From Bryobacterales bacterium (GTDB lineage: Bacteria; Acidobacteriota; Terriglobia; Bryobacterales; Bryobacteraceae), in NCBI GenBank assembly GCA_020851655.1, contig JADZCI010000072.1:1-64000 (forward strand): a stretch of 64,000 bases of DNA, in the 5' to 3' direction. A program made the position numbers and the translations under genes. Below are positions 7,256 through 14,373 of this stretch, piece after piece. The notes under the pieces were generated by a model. The model did not search any database, had not been told where the DNA came from, and saw only the letters and a list, made by a program, of their open reading frames with translations. The first letter of the stretch is position 1. Every line of letters starts with the position of its first letter.

Positions 7256-7876
7256 GTGAAGCGAATTATCGACACTCTGGTGACCTGGGGCCCGTTGGGA
7301 GTGTTTGTTATCGCCCTGATCGATTCCGCGGGTCTCCCCAACCCTGGCGGATTGGATTACGTCCTGCTGTTTCTGTCCTGGAAGCAGCCGGGCGCCGCGT
7401 ACTTGAGCGCCACCCTGGCGGTGACCGGCTCTCTGATTGGTACATACATTCTCTACCGTATCGCCCGCAAGGGCGGCGAGACATTTCTGGACAAGCACAC
7501 CCGCGGGGGTGGCGGCGCGCGTTTTCGCCGCTGGTTTGGCCGCTATGGTCTGGTCACCGTTTTTGTTCCGGCGCTCGTGCCGATCATTCCGTTGCCCATG
7601 AAGGTGTTTGTCATTTGTTCGGGCGCGTTCGGGGTCAATCCGGTTGCATTTATGGCGGCCATGGCACTGGGCCGCATTCCGCGCTATTTCGGACTGGCCT
7701 ACCTCGGACGCTCCTTAGGCGCGGATGCGGGGGCGTGGCTCAAACTGCACGCCCGCGATCTTGGCTTCGGCGCTCTCGGCCTGTTCGTGTCGCTGTTTAT
7801 ACTGATCAAGGCCACGGAGTGGTTCCGCAAGCCCGGCCCCGATAAACTGAATAGCGATCATGACCTCAGCCGTTAG
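7256..7876 (+). CDS. DedA/SNARE-associated (VTT domain) membrane protein
   Basis: This is a 206-residue integral membrane protein of the DedA/VTT family, which is linked to lipid scrambling and membrane homeostasis. It has an N-terminal membrane segment, a re-entrant region with conserved small residues and prolines, and the core pattern [19 protein letters not shown], in which the usual family FxxRF-P pattern is recognisable. Two further hydrophobic segments follow. It starts at a GTG eight bases after ligA and ends inside the following gene (17-base overlap). Translational coupling to both neighbours is likely. No substrate can be assigned. Confidence 0.8.
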
Positions 7877-9275
7877 CCGCCGGTCCTTTCTGGGCACTTC
7901 AGCGTTTATGCTCCTGGACGCCAACCCCAACGACATCCGGATTGACGAGATTACCACCAGTGAAGAGGATTTCCACTATCGCGCCCCAATGAAGTTCGGC
8001 GGCAACATCGTGGATCGCGTCAGCCTGCTGAATGTCCATTGCAGGGTTCGGAACCGCGCGGGCAAGTCAGCCCGGGGCTTCGGTTCCATGCCGCTCGGAA
8101 ATATCTGGTCGTTTCCCTCGAGAGTTCTCAAGTACGACGACACCCTGGCGGCCATGACGGCGCTGGCCAAACGCATTCAAGCGACTTATGCCGGCTACAA
8201 GGACTACGCGCACCCCGTCGAAATCAACCACCAACTGGAACCGTCGTGGCTGAAAGCCGCTTCCGAAGTGTCCGCCGAACTCAAACTGGCCGAACCAATC
8301 CCCAAGCTCTGCACCCTGGTGACGGGCAGCCCGTTTGAGGCGGCGGTGGCCGACGCCTACGGCAAACTGTATGGGCGGAGCACCTACCAGACATACACTC
8401 GCGAATTCCTGCGGGAAGACTTGTCACGATATCTCGGCTCGGATTTCAAGGGCGAAACTCTCGATCGTTACGTGCTGCCCGAGCCCAAGCCCCGCATGCC
8501 GCTATACCATCTGGTCGGCGCCGTCGATCCGATTGTCGATAGCGACATCGCCAAACGGCTGAATGACGGCTTGCCGGAAACGCTTCCCGAATGGATCAAC
8601 TTCAACGGCCTTTCCCATATCAAGATCAAGCTGAACGGCGATAATCTCGCCTGGGACCGCGACCGCGTGCTGACCATTGACCGGGTCGCAAGCGAGGTGA
8701 TGCGCAAACGCGGCGCCGCTGATTGGAAGTACTCGCTCGATTTCAACGAGCGCTGCCCAAACGTCGCGTATCTCATGGACATGCTGCGGCAGGTGAAAGA
8801 GAAGGCGCCGGACGGCTTCAACCGGATTCAGTATGTCGAGCAACCGACCGCCCGCGACCTGCGCAAGGATCGCCGGAATGTCATGCACGAGGCGTCGAAA
8901 TTGCGCCCGGTGGTGATCGACGAATCGTTGACGGACCTGGAGAACCTGCTGCTGGCCCGGGAAATGGGCTACACCGGCGCCGCTCTCAAGGCCTGCAAAG
9001 GCCAGTCACAGGCGATGCTGATGGCCGCCGCGGCGCAAAAATACAAGATGTTTCTCTGCGTCCAGGACCTGACTTGTCCGGGTGCGTCCCTGATTCACTC
9101 GGCGGGTGTCGCCGCCCACGTTCCGGGTGTCGCGGCGATTGAGGCCAATGCGCGGCAATACGTCCCCAAAGCCAACGCGGGGTGGGAGAAACGCTTTCCC
9201 GGCATCTTCATCATCAAGGACGGCTACATGAAGACCAGCGAGATTAACGGTCCTGGCCTCGGGGCGGTGGTGTAG
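7860..9275 (+). CDS. Enolase-superfamily (mandelate racemase/muconate-lactonizing-like) protein, Tat-type signal
   Basis: This 471-residue protein has a twin-arginine-like N-terminus (SRRSFLG, residues 6-12), so export by Tat is possible although the hydrophobic stretch is short. The barrel carries enolase-superfamily features in order: the K-x-K pair in IKIKLNG, an Asp in YSLDFNE, a Glu in YVEQPT, an Asp-Glu in VVIDESLTD and a late Lys in ALKACKGQS. These match the metal ligands and acid/base residues of that superfamily. It overlaps the DedA gene by 17 bases. It also meets the next, opposite-strand gene tail to tail with a 32-base overlap. The substrate is unknown, probably an acid sugar or similar carboxylate. 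Confidence 0.75.
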
Positions 9276-10923
9276 CTTCGGAATTTCCAGCCAGCATCGG
9301 CGCCTCGCACAGGACGTCTCCCGATTCCGGCCATTGATACTCAACACCCACGAGCGACGGCCTTCCGCCACGTAAGCGGACATAGACGTCGATGCTCTGC
9401 CCGGGACGGCTTTGGGCGGTTACTTCCGCTCGCAGGTACCCGTTCGAGCGCCCGGTTGGTATCACTTCTCCGTTGAAGCCAAGAGGGGTACTCAGGGAAC
9501 TGCCATTGTGGAATTCGAACCACTGAACGTTCAGCGAGCCCACCGTGATTCCATAGCTCGAACCCGGCAAGTCCCACATTAGCTCGTTGTTTTCGATTCG
9601 GAAGCGGTCGAGCGGCAGCACTTTGGCAAAGTAGACCCCGACGATCTTGTCGCGCCTTGCCCGTAAGGTGTCAAAAATGTAGCGTTCGGAGCGTGCGTCG
9701 CTGTACTGCGCGGTTTTGACGATGGCCAGAAGTTCCTCGTCAGTAAACTTCGCCACCTGTTTTGCCGCCCAGAACTCGTCATCGGCCAACCTGTTGTTGA
9801 ATGCCGGATTGGGGTACTGTGGCTTCCAATCGTCCGGGTCAAACCGTTCAGCCTCGAATCGTCCCACGCCCGGCAGGCGTGGATAACTGGCCCTGGCCCA
9901 TTCGGGAATGACGAGCCCGAGCGAAAACAGTTGGACCGCCGCCCGGCGCCACCCGAACATGTAGTCCCCGCCCTCGCGGGCGCTGTCCCAGCGTTCGCTC
10001 GCGCTCCCCATCGTCGATCCGAAATCGATCAGGTGATGCCTCAGGTGTGGCGCACCGTCTTCGACGAGCGTATCGAGCGTGTTGATGGCGCGCGAATCGT
10101 CGTGGTTCAACCATGCGCAAAAAACGTGGAGTCCGCGTAACTCCCGGTGGTGCTCATGCGGGAATACGTCGTTCGGGTCATCGGAACGAGTCCCGTGATA
10201 GCGAAACGGACCCAGCGGCTTGCCTTCCAACGCCAGGCTCGCTGTCACCCGGTATTTTCCTGACTTGGTCTTCGGCGCCTTCCAAAGTACTTCCTCCAGA
10301 TCCATGCGCGTCATCCTCCGCACCATGCCAGTCTGCGGATCGTTGAAACTCACGCGCTCGTCCACATCGAGCATCTTGGGGTCGACTTCCACCAGGAAGT
10401 TCGCCGGAACATGGTAGCCCAGCGCGTAAAAGATTCGGGTCGCGATCGCTTCGGCGCCGGTGGCCATCTCAGCGTTCGATAGCGGATCGAGTTTGACGAA
10501 GAACTTGCGCTTGCTGCTATCGACGACGACGAAGCCAGGCGTGATGCCCTCAGTCTTGGCGGCAACAATCAGCCAGGGAGAACTCGAGTCTGGTGGAGGA
10601 TATCCTCCAGGGACCTGCGTCAACTCGTCCAGGTTCATCCGCTTGTAATAGTGGCGCCTCGCATACCAGGAACCTGCGAGAGGTTCGCCCATGGTGTTCA
10701 CGTTGGTGGCGCGCACGCGCCGCCCCCGCTCAGGCTGCCGCGCGCCGGGCGTGGCGACGCTGTTGATCACAACGTCGTAGTAGTCGCTCAACTTGCGCGC
10801 CCGCGCACTGGTAACGGCGCGCGGCGGCGGTTCGGCTGTCAGCGGGTCATCCTCATAGAAACGCTGCCCGGCCGCCGAACCAGCTATCCCAAACAAGAGC
10901 ACAGCGGCCAGTCTCATTCGCAT
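9244..10923 (-). CDS. Exported protein with protein-kinase-like (HipA/PI3K-type) catalytic motifs, function unknown
   Basis: This 559-residue protein has a signal peptide (residues 1-19, cleavage after SAAG). I do not recognise a named family. The middle contains the catalytic signature of the kinase fold. A candidate ATP-binding lysine is K144 in FFVKLDP, followed by a helix rich in Glu. HDDSRAIN at residues 274-281 has the D-x4-N spacing of a catalytic loop, and LIDFGSTMG has D300-F301-G302 like a metal-binding DFG. The C-terminal third is predicted beta-rich. It ends the nfeD-slipin-Omp85 gene run, eight bases after the barrel gene, suggesting a periplasmic or surface role. Kinase activity outside the cytoplasm would lack an obvious ATP source, so a pseudokinase or scaffold is also possible. 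Confidence 0.6.
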
Positions 10924-10931
10924 CGCGACTC

Positions 10932-12215
10932 CTAGTAGATCGGTTGTTGACGCGTGGCGCCGAACCGGCGCGGCAGAAAAGGATCGTTGAACTTGAACCA
11001 GATCTGCCAGCCTTCGTGGCTGAATCCCACGTCCAGCCGCAAGAACGTCGTGTTCTTCGCGTTGAAACGCAGTCCAAAACCATAAGCGCCTTCCAGGTCG
11101 TTGAGGTTCAGAAAGCCACGCCGGGGGAATACCTTTCCGCCATCCACAAACAGCGCACCGTCCAAACCTGAAAACACCTCCCAGCGGTACTCACCGTTCA
11201 GCACAAGCATGTTCCGGTCCCGGAACCGGTACGGCCGGAAACCTCGCAAGTCATCAGAACCCCCGAGGATCGGCTGAAGGTAGAAAGGAACCACCTCCAG
11301 GCCATCGGTGTCCGTAAGGACTGTTTTGGCGCGCAGCGCAAAGCGATGTGTCCCATTGAACATTGCGATGTATTGTTGCAGGTCCAGATCGAGCCGCCGG
11401 AATCCGAATGCGCCATAGACATTGTCTCGGTACCAGGTCTGCTGCAGGACGTAGTTGCCGCCGCTCTTCGGACCCGCGGGGTTGTCGCGATAGTCGAACT
11501 GATAGAACAAACCGTAGGTGAGGAAATTGGTTTGCCGGTTGATCCCCGGAGCCAGTGCCGGTCCGAACGCCTGGTCCGTCGAAATCACTCCGTCGCGCTT
11601 CCCCGGACCGACGTTGAACCACGAATAACCAACCACGCCGCCCAACCGCGACCGCGGAAGCCTGCGCAAGACCAGTTGCGTTTCCCATGAGGTGTCCTCA
11701 AGCCGGTAGTTGCTGCGCCCGCCTTTGGTCGAATCCGGCCCGGGTCCATAGTAGTCAATCCGGTTGTAATCGCGATACGCCGCCAGAAAGTCCCAGCCCA
11801 GCCAGTTGTTCGCGAATCGCGGAGCCTCCCAGTGCGTCTCAGTCTTCCAGGAAAGGCTCGTGGCGCCCTGCACGGAGAATCGAGCCTTCACCCTGCCGTG
11901 CATCAACCGGTCGGCGTGATACTCCGGACCGATGGCAAATCCCGCGCCGGTAGCCAGGTTTCCCAACTTGAACCGCCAGCCGTGATACCCCTCCCGGAAC
12001 TTCTTCAGATAGTCCTGGTCCTGAACTCGCCTGGCAAAAGTTTCAGGTTTGTTGAGAGTCTCCGGACGTAGCGCCAAGTCTTTGCGATTGCGCAGGTTCT
12101 CGATCACGTCCCGCCGGGACGTAGCCTCGTCATCCCCGAGACACAACAGGAGTAATGTGAGCGCACCACCCAGAGTAGTCACATTAAGCTTACTTAAGAC
12201 TAGCCCATTCCTCAA
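10932..12215 (-). CDS. BamA/TamA (Omp85) family outer-membrane barrel protein lacking POTRA domains
   Basis: This 427-residue protein is predicted to be a beta barrel in the outer membrane. After a hydrophobic export segment and a short helical region it alternates amphipathic strands rich in Tyr, Trp and Gly. It contains LGGSDDLRGFRPYRFRD near residue 325, matching the conserved loop-6 RGF/Y motif of the bacterial surface antigen (D15) domain. Only about 100 residues precede the barrel, with no recognisable POTRA repeats. The start is a TTG, and a GTG at 12182 is an alternative that would give a tighter signal peptide. It lies between the slipin and the exported kinase-like gene and is probably in one operon with them. 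Confidence 0.75.
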   Translation of the reverse strand: MRNGLVLSKLNVTTLGGALTLLLLCLGDDEATSRRDVIENLRNRKDLALRPETLNKPETFARRVQDQDYLKKFREGYHGWRFKLGNLATGAGFAIGPEYHADRLMHGRVKARFSVQGATSLSWKTETHWEAPRFANNWLGWDFLAAYRDYNRIDYYGPGPDSTKGGRSNYRLEDTSWETQLVLRRLPRSRLGGVVGYSWFNVGPGKRDGVISTDQAFGPALAPGINRQTNFLTYGLFYQFDYRDNPAGPKSGGNYVLQQTWYRDNVYGAFGFRRLDLDLQQYIAMFNGTHRFALRAKTVLTDTDGLEVVPFYLQPILGGSDDLRGFRPYRFRDRNMLVLNGEYRWEVFSGLDGALFVDGGKVFPRRGFLNLNDLEGAYGFGLRFNAKNTTFLRLDVGFSHEGWQIWFKFNDPFLPRRFGATRQQPIY

Positions 12216-12250: not shown

Positions 12251-13054
12251 TTAGACGCTACCTGGCGATTCCGGCGCCTGCACCTGAACAGGCGTGCCGC
12301 CGTCGCGGTTCATCGCCGTCATGAAGCCTTGAAAAATGTCGATTGGAAGCGGGAAGACCACGGTCGTGTTTTTTTCCGATCCAATCTCCACCAAGGTCTG
12401 CAGGTACCGCAACTGTATGGCGACGGGTTGGCGCGCGATCACCTGCGCGGCCTGTGCCAGGCGCTCGGCCGCCATGAACTCGCCTTCGGCGTGAATCACC
12501 TTGGCCCGCCGCTCGCGTTCGGCTTCCGCCTGCCGCGCAATGGCGCGAACCATTGAGTCCGGCAAATCCACCTGCTTGACCTCCACCATGGTTACTTTCA
12601 CGCCCCAGCCCGCCGTGTGCCGGTCCAGGATCGTTTGCAAGCGGGCGTTTAGTTTTTCGCGATTGCTGAGCAACTCGTCCAGATCCACCTCACCCAGCAC
12701 GCTGCGGAGAGTCGTTTGCGCCAGTTGAGACGTGGCGAACAGGAAGTTGGAAACTTCCAGCACGGCAAGCTTCGGGTCGACAACCCGGAAGAACACCACC
12801 GCGTTTACCTTGACGGTGACGTTGTCATGCGTTACGACATCTTGTGGCGGCACCTCCAAGGTCTCGATCCGCAGAGAGATCCGCACGATCCGGTCGATCG
12901 GGGCAAAGACCAGAATGATCCCCGGCCCTTTCGGATCGGGCAGAACCCTGCCCAACCGGAAAATCACACCACGCTCGTATTCACGCAACACCTTGATCGA
13001 TGAGATCAGGTAAATCGCGACAATCAGGATTGCGACCATCGACACTTCGGACAT
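12251..13054 (-). CDS. Slipin family protein (SPFH/band 7/stomatin-like)
   Basis: This is a 267-residue membrane scaffold protein. One N-terminal membrane segment (about residues 5-22) is followed by a [13 protein letters not shown] start to the SPFH domain and a C-terminal coiled coil with the alternating [17 protein letters not shown] pattern. These proteins oligomerise and organise membrane microdomains. In bacteria and archaea they are commonly encoded next to an NfeD protease that cleaves them. Here nfeD lies 11 bases upstream in the same direction, the classic arrangement. Confidence 0.92.
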
Positions 13055-13065
13055 GATTGGTTCTC

Positions 13066-14373
13066 CTATATCTGCTGCTGCGGCTCATCTGAATCGACAG
13101 GTTCAACCTCTGCTTCCAAACCTTGCACTTTTAGCACCCGGACAGCCTTGCCCTCCGGGACCGGCACGGCGGAACGCGCCGACCACGTCTCGCCGCGGAG
13201 CAGAATCACCCCTTCCGGCGCCAGCGGGGTCATCGTCCTGGCAAGCATCCCGACCAGCGCTTCACGCCCGGTTTCCGGAGGACGCCGGCGCGCCTGAACC
13301 ACCAGCGTGGCCAGGAACAATGTGATCGCGGCAAATGGCAGCGCCAGCCCCAGCGCGGAACCAAAGCCGATCCGCATCTCCGGCGCGGGACTGTCCACGA
13401 GAAGCATCGCCCCGAGGACAAGCGCCACGGCGCCGCCGATGCCCAGAACTCCGTGCGAGGTGACGATCGCCTCCAGGGCGAACAACGTTAGGGCCAGCAG
13501 AATCAACCCGACGCCGGTCCACGTCACCGGGATCACCGAAAACGCAGTCAGGCCGACAAGCAGGAGAATGCCGCCCGCCACACCCGGAACAACCGCGCCC
13601 GGCGTTGTGAATTCCAGGTATAGGCCAACGGCGCCAAGCAGCAGGATGGCCAGCGCCAGGGTCGGGTTGCTTAGGCCGACCTGTATTTTCTGGCGGAGCG
13701 ACCGTTCGTAAACAATCACCCTGGCCCCACCTACGTCGAGGTGTTGGTGTTCCCCGGAAAAACGTTCGACGTCGCGCCCGTTGACCTGCGCCAGAAGATC
13801 GCTGGTGTCGCGCGCGACGAGGTCAATAAGCCCGTCCTTCAGAGCCTCCTGCTCGGTGAACGAGCGGCTCTCGCTCACCGTCTTTTCCGCCAGTGCGCTG
13901 TTGCGCTTGCGCCGTTCGACCAAACTGCGGAGAGAGGCGCGCGCATCGTTCTCCACCTTTTTCATCATCACCGGGTCGGGCGTACCGGCAATCATGACCG
14001 GTGTCGCGGCGCCGGTGTTGGTGCCCGGCGCCATGGCGGCGACATCTCCCGCTTCCAGGAGGAAGAAGCCCGCCGACGCCGCTCTGCCCCCGCTCGGCGT
14101 CACGTACGTGATCACCGGGACCGGAGACGATACCAGCTTCTCCACAGCCGCCCGTGTGGCGTCGGAAAATCCTCCGGGCGTATTCAGACGCACCAGCAGA
14201 GCCCGGCACCTCTCCTGGCCCGCCTTCTGAATAGCATTGGTAAGGATGTCGACTGTTACGGGGTGCACCACGCTGTCGACATCAACGGCCACGACGCAGG
14301 GGCGTTCTTCGGCCCCCAGCAAGGGCAGCATCATCGTTCCGGCGACTATGGCGAAGGTAAGTCTTGCCGGCAT
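13066..14373 (-). CDS. NfeD-type membrane-bound serine protease (ClpP class)
   Basis: This 435-residue protein is a long-form NfeD. A signal peptide (residues 1-20) precedes an extracytoplasmic ClpP-like protease domain, with the nucleophile region GGRAASAG placing Ser100 at the catalytic position. A run of membrane segments follows (about residues 235-345), then a C-terminal OB-fold NfeD domain ending in VEPVDSDEP. Related archaeal enzymes cut the hydrophobic C-terminus of stomatin, which fits the slipin gene immediately downstream. The start is supported by an AGGAGG ribosome-binding site seven bases before the ATG. It heads the run of four genes that ends with the exported kinase-like protein. 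Confidence 0.92.

Follow-up and report, generated by a model that had tools for sequence, protein, structure and literature searches.

A predicted exported kinase-fold protein of Acidobacteriota encoded with an Omp85-family barrel and associated with nucleotide transporters

In the window, by which we mean the whole 64,000-nucleotide stretch of Bryobacterales DNA analysed here, we find a gene for a protein in which a predicted kinase fold with conserved catalytic residues is combined with an export signal. Its homologues across the Acidobacteriota are encoded almost without exception directly behind an Omp85-family outer-membrane barrel, and the genomes that carry them nearly always also hold a nucleotide transporter of the NTT/TLC type. 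From this constellation we infer that the protein would be catalytically active, would be located beyond the inner membrane in contact with the barrel, and would use ATP transported into the periplasm. Taken as a whole, the explanation that a HipA/Fam20-type kinase is exported and works with the Omp85 barrel on ATP from the NTT is one that we regard as evenly poised between right and wrong.

Table 1 Features of the kinase-barrel gene pair in the window
Feature	Position	Strand	Basis
Predicted exported kinase-fold protein, 559 aa	9244..10923	-	ORF and motif positions, AlphaFold2 model, fold matches
Signal-peptide-like N-terminus, residues 1-19	10867..10923	-	Sequence; hydrophobic segment in 138/139 homologues
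Conserved FxxDDP, residues 22-27, just past presumed cleavage site	10843..10860	-	Homologue conservation
K144, presumed ATP-binding lysine of N-lobe	10492..10494	-	K in 120/134; opposite invariant K of HipA_2 relatives
Family signature DDxxD-H-R-R, residues 244-263	10135..10194	-	D248, D249, D252, H256, R260 and R263 in 134/134
Catalytic loop H274-D275-D276-x4-N281	10081..10104	-	D276 in 127/134, N281 in 129/134; D276 opposite catalytic D of HipA_2 relatives
DFG-type metal-binding motif, residues 300-302	10018..10026	-	D300 in 132/134
C-terminal beta-rich domain outside kinase core, residues 438-531	9331..9612	-	DSSP of AlphaFold2 model
Omp85-family outer-membrane barrel without POTRA	10932..12215	-	PF01103, 5e-12; TTG start uncertain
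Omp85 L6-loop signature LRGF, residues 323-326	11238..11249	-	R324 and G325 invariant in 51 relatives

Fold, catalytic motifs and export signal

The open reading frame of the kinase-fold protein starts at an ATG preceded by AGGAG (Table 1). The preliminary description of this DNA had placed K144, H274-D275-D276-x4-N281 and D300-F301-G302 behind an N-terminal signal peptide, and we find all three elements at exactly these residues, together with a signal-peptide-like start whose hydrophobic segment, just 5' of the conserved FxxDDP, recurs in all but one of the 139 homologues tested (the exception being a weak partial match). Judged on these sequence features, the protein is almost certainly exported; since its only cysteines are C269 and C539, it is not a lipoprotein. 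The motif H-x-D-x4-N-x15-25-DFG arose in one of 20,000 shuffles of the protein, and a chance origin is ruled out by this count and by the conservation in 134 homologues, of which conservation is the stronger test. Retention of K144, D276, N281 and D300 among homologues had been named beforehand as a check, and each of the four residues is indeed kept in 90-99% of the 134 distinct homologues. Downstream, a convergent enolase-superfamily gene (7860-9275, plus strand) overlaps the 3' end of the kinase gene by 32 bases (9244-9275); it was not found beside the kinase in the homologue loci.

Built from 47 sequences, the AlphaFold2 model of the protein has a pLDDT of 92.4 and a pTM of 0.91, and its best Foldseek matches in the PDB are kinases: the Fam20C-type Golgi casein kinase 4kqb at the top (E 2.5e-4, prob 1.00) and, below 4kqb and 4kqa, HipT, Fam20C, Rio2 and HipA. 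The bilobal kinase fold for which structure prediction and Foldseek had been suggested as a check is thus supported by the model and its matches, and we are highly confident of this predicted fold. The E-values of the fold matches are modest and the global TM-scores low (0.30), the latter being expected for full-length comparisons because of large insertions and the extra C-terminal beta domain. Searches of a viral fold library provided no useful lead, the best matches being long phage proteins with names only partly kinase-like.

At the sequence level, the protein has no match in Pfam (E<=1) or NCBIfam, and in the PDB the single sequence has no match at E<=10 and the profile only unrelated weak ones. 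The HipA_2 family (PF20613) gives weak matches in 18 of 47 family members (best 8e-4), and none at E<=1 for the window protein, which does not reach the HipA_2 gathering cut-off. Profile-profile comparison with acidobacterial HipA_2 proteins yields a prob of 91.7 (E 8e-7), with K144, D276 and D300 each aligned to an invariant residue of these relatives (K, D and D, respectively); by this alignment the protein is a remote HipA_2 relative only. Kinship to CotH (PF08757) was rejected, with an hhalign prob of 0.1 against 13 acidobacterial CotH proteins and no CotH structure among the 50 best-ranked PDB fold matches. Because of the Foldseek results and the two profile comparisons, we regard the protein as kinase-fold and remotely HipA-like, not as CotH. 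Of the options raised in the preliminary description, the HipA- or Fam20-like one is therefore supported and the CotH-like one dropped; a pseudokinase does not agree with the window protein, in which all the catalytic residues are kept.

Fam20C (4kqb/4kqa), the best fold match in the PDB, functions beyond the cytosol via the secretory route, as we propose here, but it is eukaryotic and shares 9% identity, with no sequence relationship detected, and the similarity is one of fold only. Fam20C obtains its ATP in the Golgi lumen, whereas the ATP source in the present case is a proposal. HipA-like kinases (HipA_2, PF20613, and HipA_C, PF07804) have the catalytic residues in the same order and of the same identity (K, a D-x4-N-like loop and the D at the DFG position), and HipT and HipA are also among the fold matches. 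The known HipA and HipT proteins reside in the cytoplasm, as the toxins of toxin-antitoxin systems (PMC9758233); the window protein differs in having a signal peptide, some 250 additional residues, a DDxxD-H-R-R signature of its own and the C-terminal beta domain, and in having no HipB-like partner, its neighbours being the Omp85 barrel and, in relatives, NTT and phosphatase genes. The CotH spore-coat kinases, which phosphorylate CotB in the spore coat (PMC7821199), are likewise bacterial atypical kinases, but without profile similarity to the present family.

The family and its barrel partner

Homologues of the kinase-fold protein were found by single-sequence search in 16 of 61 relatives and in 52 genomes of a 297-genome sample of the phylum Acidobacteriota, and a profile search gave strong matches in 50 of the 297, distributed over 24 family-level groups. 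A scan of 84,980 species genomes returned 409 matches, the best 80 of which are almost all labelled Acidobacteria/Bryobacterales; plasmid-borne relatives were not found. Judged by its nearest named matches, the window's genome would fall within Bryobacteraceae. One locus titled Arcobacter sp. MAG (L060) holds a kinase, a barrel and an NTT that are all acidobacterial in type, and is probably a mislabelled bin. Tandem kinase copies occur at three loci, two of them (L086 and L103) with both copies behind a single barrel gene and the third (L167) with a barrel for each copy. A broken-up kinase remnant is seen in L015, L022 and L023 (G030, contig C8, around 78 kb), with an NTT gene about 2 kb off, and a family of small HipA-like kinase fragments with the motif NTDRNTGN lies near the kinase-barrel module at five loci (L098:2-349(+), L101, L103, L116 and L130).

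The barrel gene lies directly upstream of the kinase gene in the window, separated from it by 8 bp. The AlphaFold2 model of its product has 16 strands, with only short helices ahead of the barrel and no POTRA domain, and matches BamA and TamA barrels best in the PDB (E 2e-14). The protein thus has the 16-strand barrel and the (V/I/L)RG(F/Y) motif that define the Omp85 superfamily, and does not have the N-terminal POTRA domains that define BamA, TamA and TpsB. It resembles in these respects the 'noNterm' Omp85 members, which likewise combine a 16-strand barrel and LRGF at L6 with the lack of an N-terminal POTRA, and for which a role in membrane protein assembly has been proposed (PMC4104836); a word search of that paper returned no mention of kinase or Acidobacteria. 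A barrel gene stands directly upstream and on the same strand in 130 of the 134 kinase loci; of the other four kinases, two lie at contig ends and two are the second copy of a tandem. The gaps between the two genes are clustered, from slight overlaps to about 20 bases. The barrel is very probably a functional partner of the kinase, and a class of POTRA-less Omp85 barrels would thereby gain a constant partner. Directly upstream of the barrel in the window, on the same strand and with gaps of 11 and 35 bases, are NfeD1b and slipin (Band_7) genes (12251-14373, minus strand), which have no relatives in 140 homologue loci and were treated as local, not as part of the system.

At least one of the four catalytic residues has been lost in 17 of the 134 members, on at least nine occasions. 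All 17 keep the DDxxD-H-R-R signature, the barrel gene adjoins most of them, and clear pseudokinases keep the barrel upstream. Since degenerate members retain both signature and barrel, the signature probably serves barrel contact or folding, and not catalysis alone. The same losses and retentions would be compatible with the kinase fold being a binding or assembly module, that is, a client, plug or chaperone of the Omp85 barrel in which phosphotransfer is secondary or lost, as would the gain of about 400 residues at the C-terminus of some degenerate members (L034:3160-4350(+), L038:47-1300(-)). Against such a module stands the retention of the catalytic residues in most homologues (Table 1) across 33-56% identity, a divergence large enough for this conservation to indicate catalysis in most members. 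On balance, we hold active phosphotransfer by the kinase to be probable, and a mere binding role to be rather unlikely. The extra C-terminal domain of the L034/L038 pseudokinase clade has no match in Pfam and is possibly a receptor or effector domain.

The constant order of a barrel followed by an exported enzyme could also be read as a split analogue of PlpD-type type Vd secretion, with the barrel as the secretion pore for a kinase that acts outside the cell, given that Omp85 barrels are known protein translocases and that PlpD fuses an enzyme to an Omp85 barrel (PMC11116518). We consider this improbable, as the barrel has no POTRA domain for passenger recruitment, PlpD is placed as an outer-membrane homodimer (PMC11116518), and ATP would be even scarcer outside the cell.

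Nucleotide transporters in kinase genomes

Clustering of the genes neighbouring the kinase brought out a recurrent transporter, identified as a TLC ATP/ADP transporter (PF03219; L054:6530-7909). The match to PF03219 has an E-value of 1.3e-15 (57.6 bits against a cut-off of 21), and that to the solved ADP,ATP carrier 9j3n 4.6e-10. Among close relatives, an NTT is present in 16 of 16 kinase genomes, two of which (G030 and G039) carry kinase fragments only, as against 4 of 45 non-carriers (p 2e-11, with kinship ignored). The corresponding numbers for the phylum sample are 47 of 50 against 73 of 247 (p 3e-18, again with kinship ignored), or 39 of 50 against 38 of 247 with the Pfam model alone; two (G081 and G128) of the three kinase genomes without an NTT have a degenerate kinase.

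The association extends to gene order. Of the 134 kinase loci, which amount to 1.55 Mb, 70 have an NTT in their flanks, whereas the 61 relative genomes taken together contain 38 NTT matches. The NTT gene immediately follows the kinase gene in 36 loci, and the two genes overlap by 4 or 7 bases in 15. With at least 33 changes of linkage counted on the kinase tree, the linkage is not one inherited arrangement, which favours the view that the combination has been selected for repeatedly. The window's own genome has its NTTs unlinked to the kinase, on contigs C55, C11 and C76 of G000, with none next to the kinase-barrel pair or anywhere else in the 64 kb.

The prediction that NTT linkage tracks catalytic intactness was not supported: linkage is found beside 63 of 117 intact and 7 of 17 degenerate kinases (p 0.44), and that it is not rarer beside degenerate kinases counts against a simple ATP-supply reading. 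NTTs must also have other uses, because 73 genomes of the phylum sample have an NTT without the kinase, among them a genus-level group (g84) with one NTT each. Some members of the TLC family transport substrates other than ATP/ADP. Such substrates are also discussed in PMC5381601, according to which characterised NTTs come from intracellular parasites and plastids and the role in free-living bacteria is unknown; the operon partner seen in relatives of the window belongs to this same family, but differs from the characterised members in being tied to an exported kinase. Weighing these observations, we see the arguments for and against an ATP supply to the kinase by the NTT as about balanced.

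Two more genes are repeatedly found downstream, one for another NTT-like protein, of about 730 aa, the other for a Ser/Thr kinase that has a membrane region at its N-terminus (L054:7844-10054(-), L054:10100-11530(-) and similar loci). That the NTT association is indirect, with kinase, barrel and NTT lying in a larger envelope or regulatory island and another donor or trace leaked nucleotide in use, would agree with the recurrence of these two genes and of phosphatases in the same islands and with the independence of linkage from catalytic intactness, but is very unlikely in view of the overlapping or near-overlapping NTT genes directly downstream at 36 loci and of a co-occurrence that persists without linkage, the window's own genome being one such case.

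Proposed role in the envelope

In the literature (e.g. PMC11366764) the Gram-negative periplasm is regarded as devoid of ATP, and the finding of an exported kinase nearly always together with an NTT suggests that ATP is fed to phosphorylation outside the inner membrane. If this is true, an ATP-driven enzyme system would operate where ATP is assumed to be missing, and NTT transporters would acquire a role in free-living bacteria. As the exported kinase and its barrel are almost never found without an NTT in the genome, both questions can be tested in one operon, for which Edaphobacter aggregans DSM 19364 (L093), where barrel and kinase are present, is a named strain. In the open-access literature on periplasmic ATP, exported kinases and a link between Omp85, kinase and translocase in Acidobacteria, we found no paper describing the module. 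The kinase family is an unnamed addition to the HipA/Fam20 group, and its combination with these partners appears to be undescribed; the fold and both partner families, Omp85 and NTT, are already known, and it would take a demonstration of ATP-fed periplasmic phosphorylation to make the module categorically new.

In the mechanism we propose, the kinase, made with a signal peptide, would cross the inner membrane and, jointly with the upstream-encoded Omp85 barrel, act either in the periplasm or at the outer membrane; the barrel may be its holder, its outward carrier or its first substrate. ATP would be supplied by an inner-membrane nucleotide exchanger of the NTT/TLC type, whose gene belongs to the operon in many relatives but lies elsewhere in the window's genome. 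One may guess at an envelope protein or a glycolipid as the substrate, and exported-type phosphatases, which other relatives encode in the operon, may undo the reaction or process what it yields. Put more generally, these components might constitute a dedicated extracytoplasmic phosphorylation system in Acidobacteriota, in which an inner-membrane ATP/ADP exchanger provides ATP in the periplasm to an exported kinase working at an Omp85 barrel, and exported phosphatases are the counterparts of the kinase, a proposal that we make tentatively. Phosphatases of the exported type do recur near the kinase loci of relatives, and in 20 of the 134 loci a calcineurin-like phosphoesterase or a PAP2 phosphatase is encoded directly downstream of the kinase.
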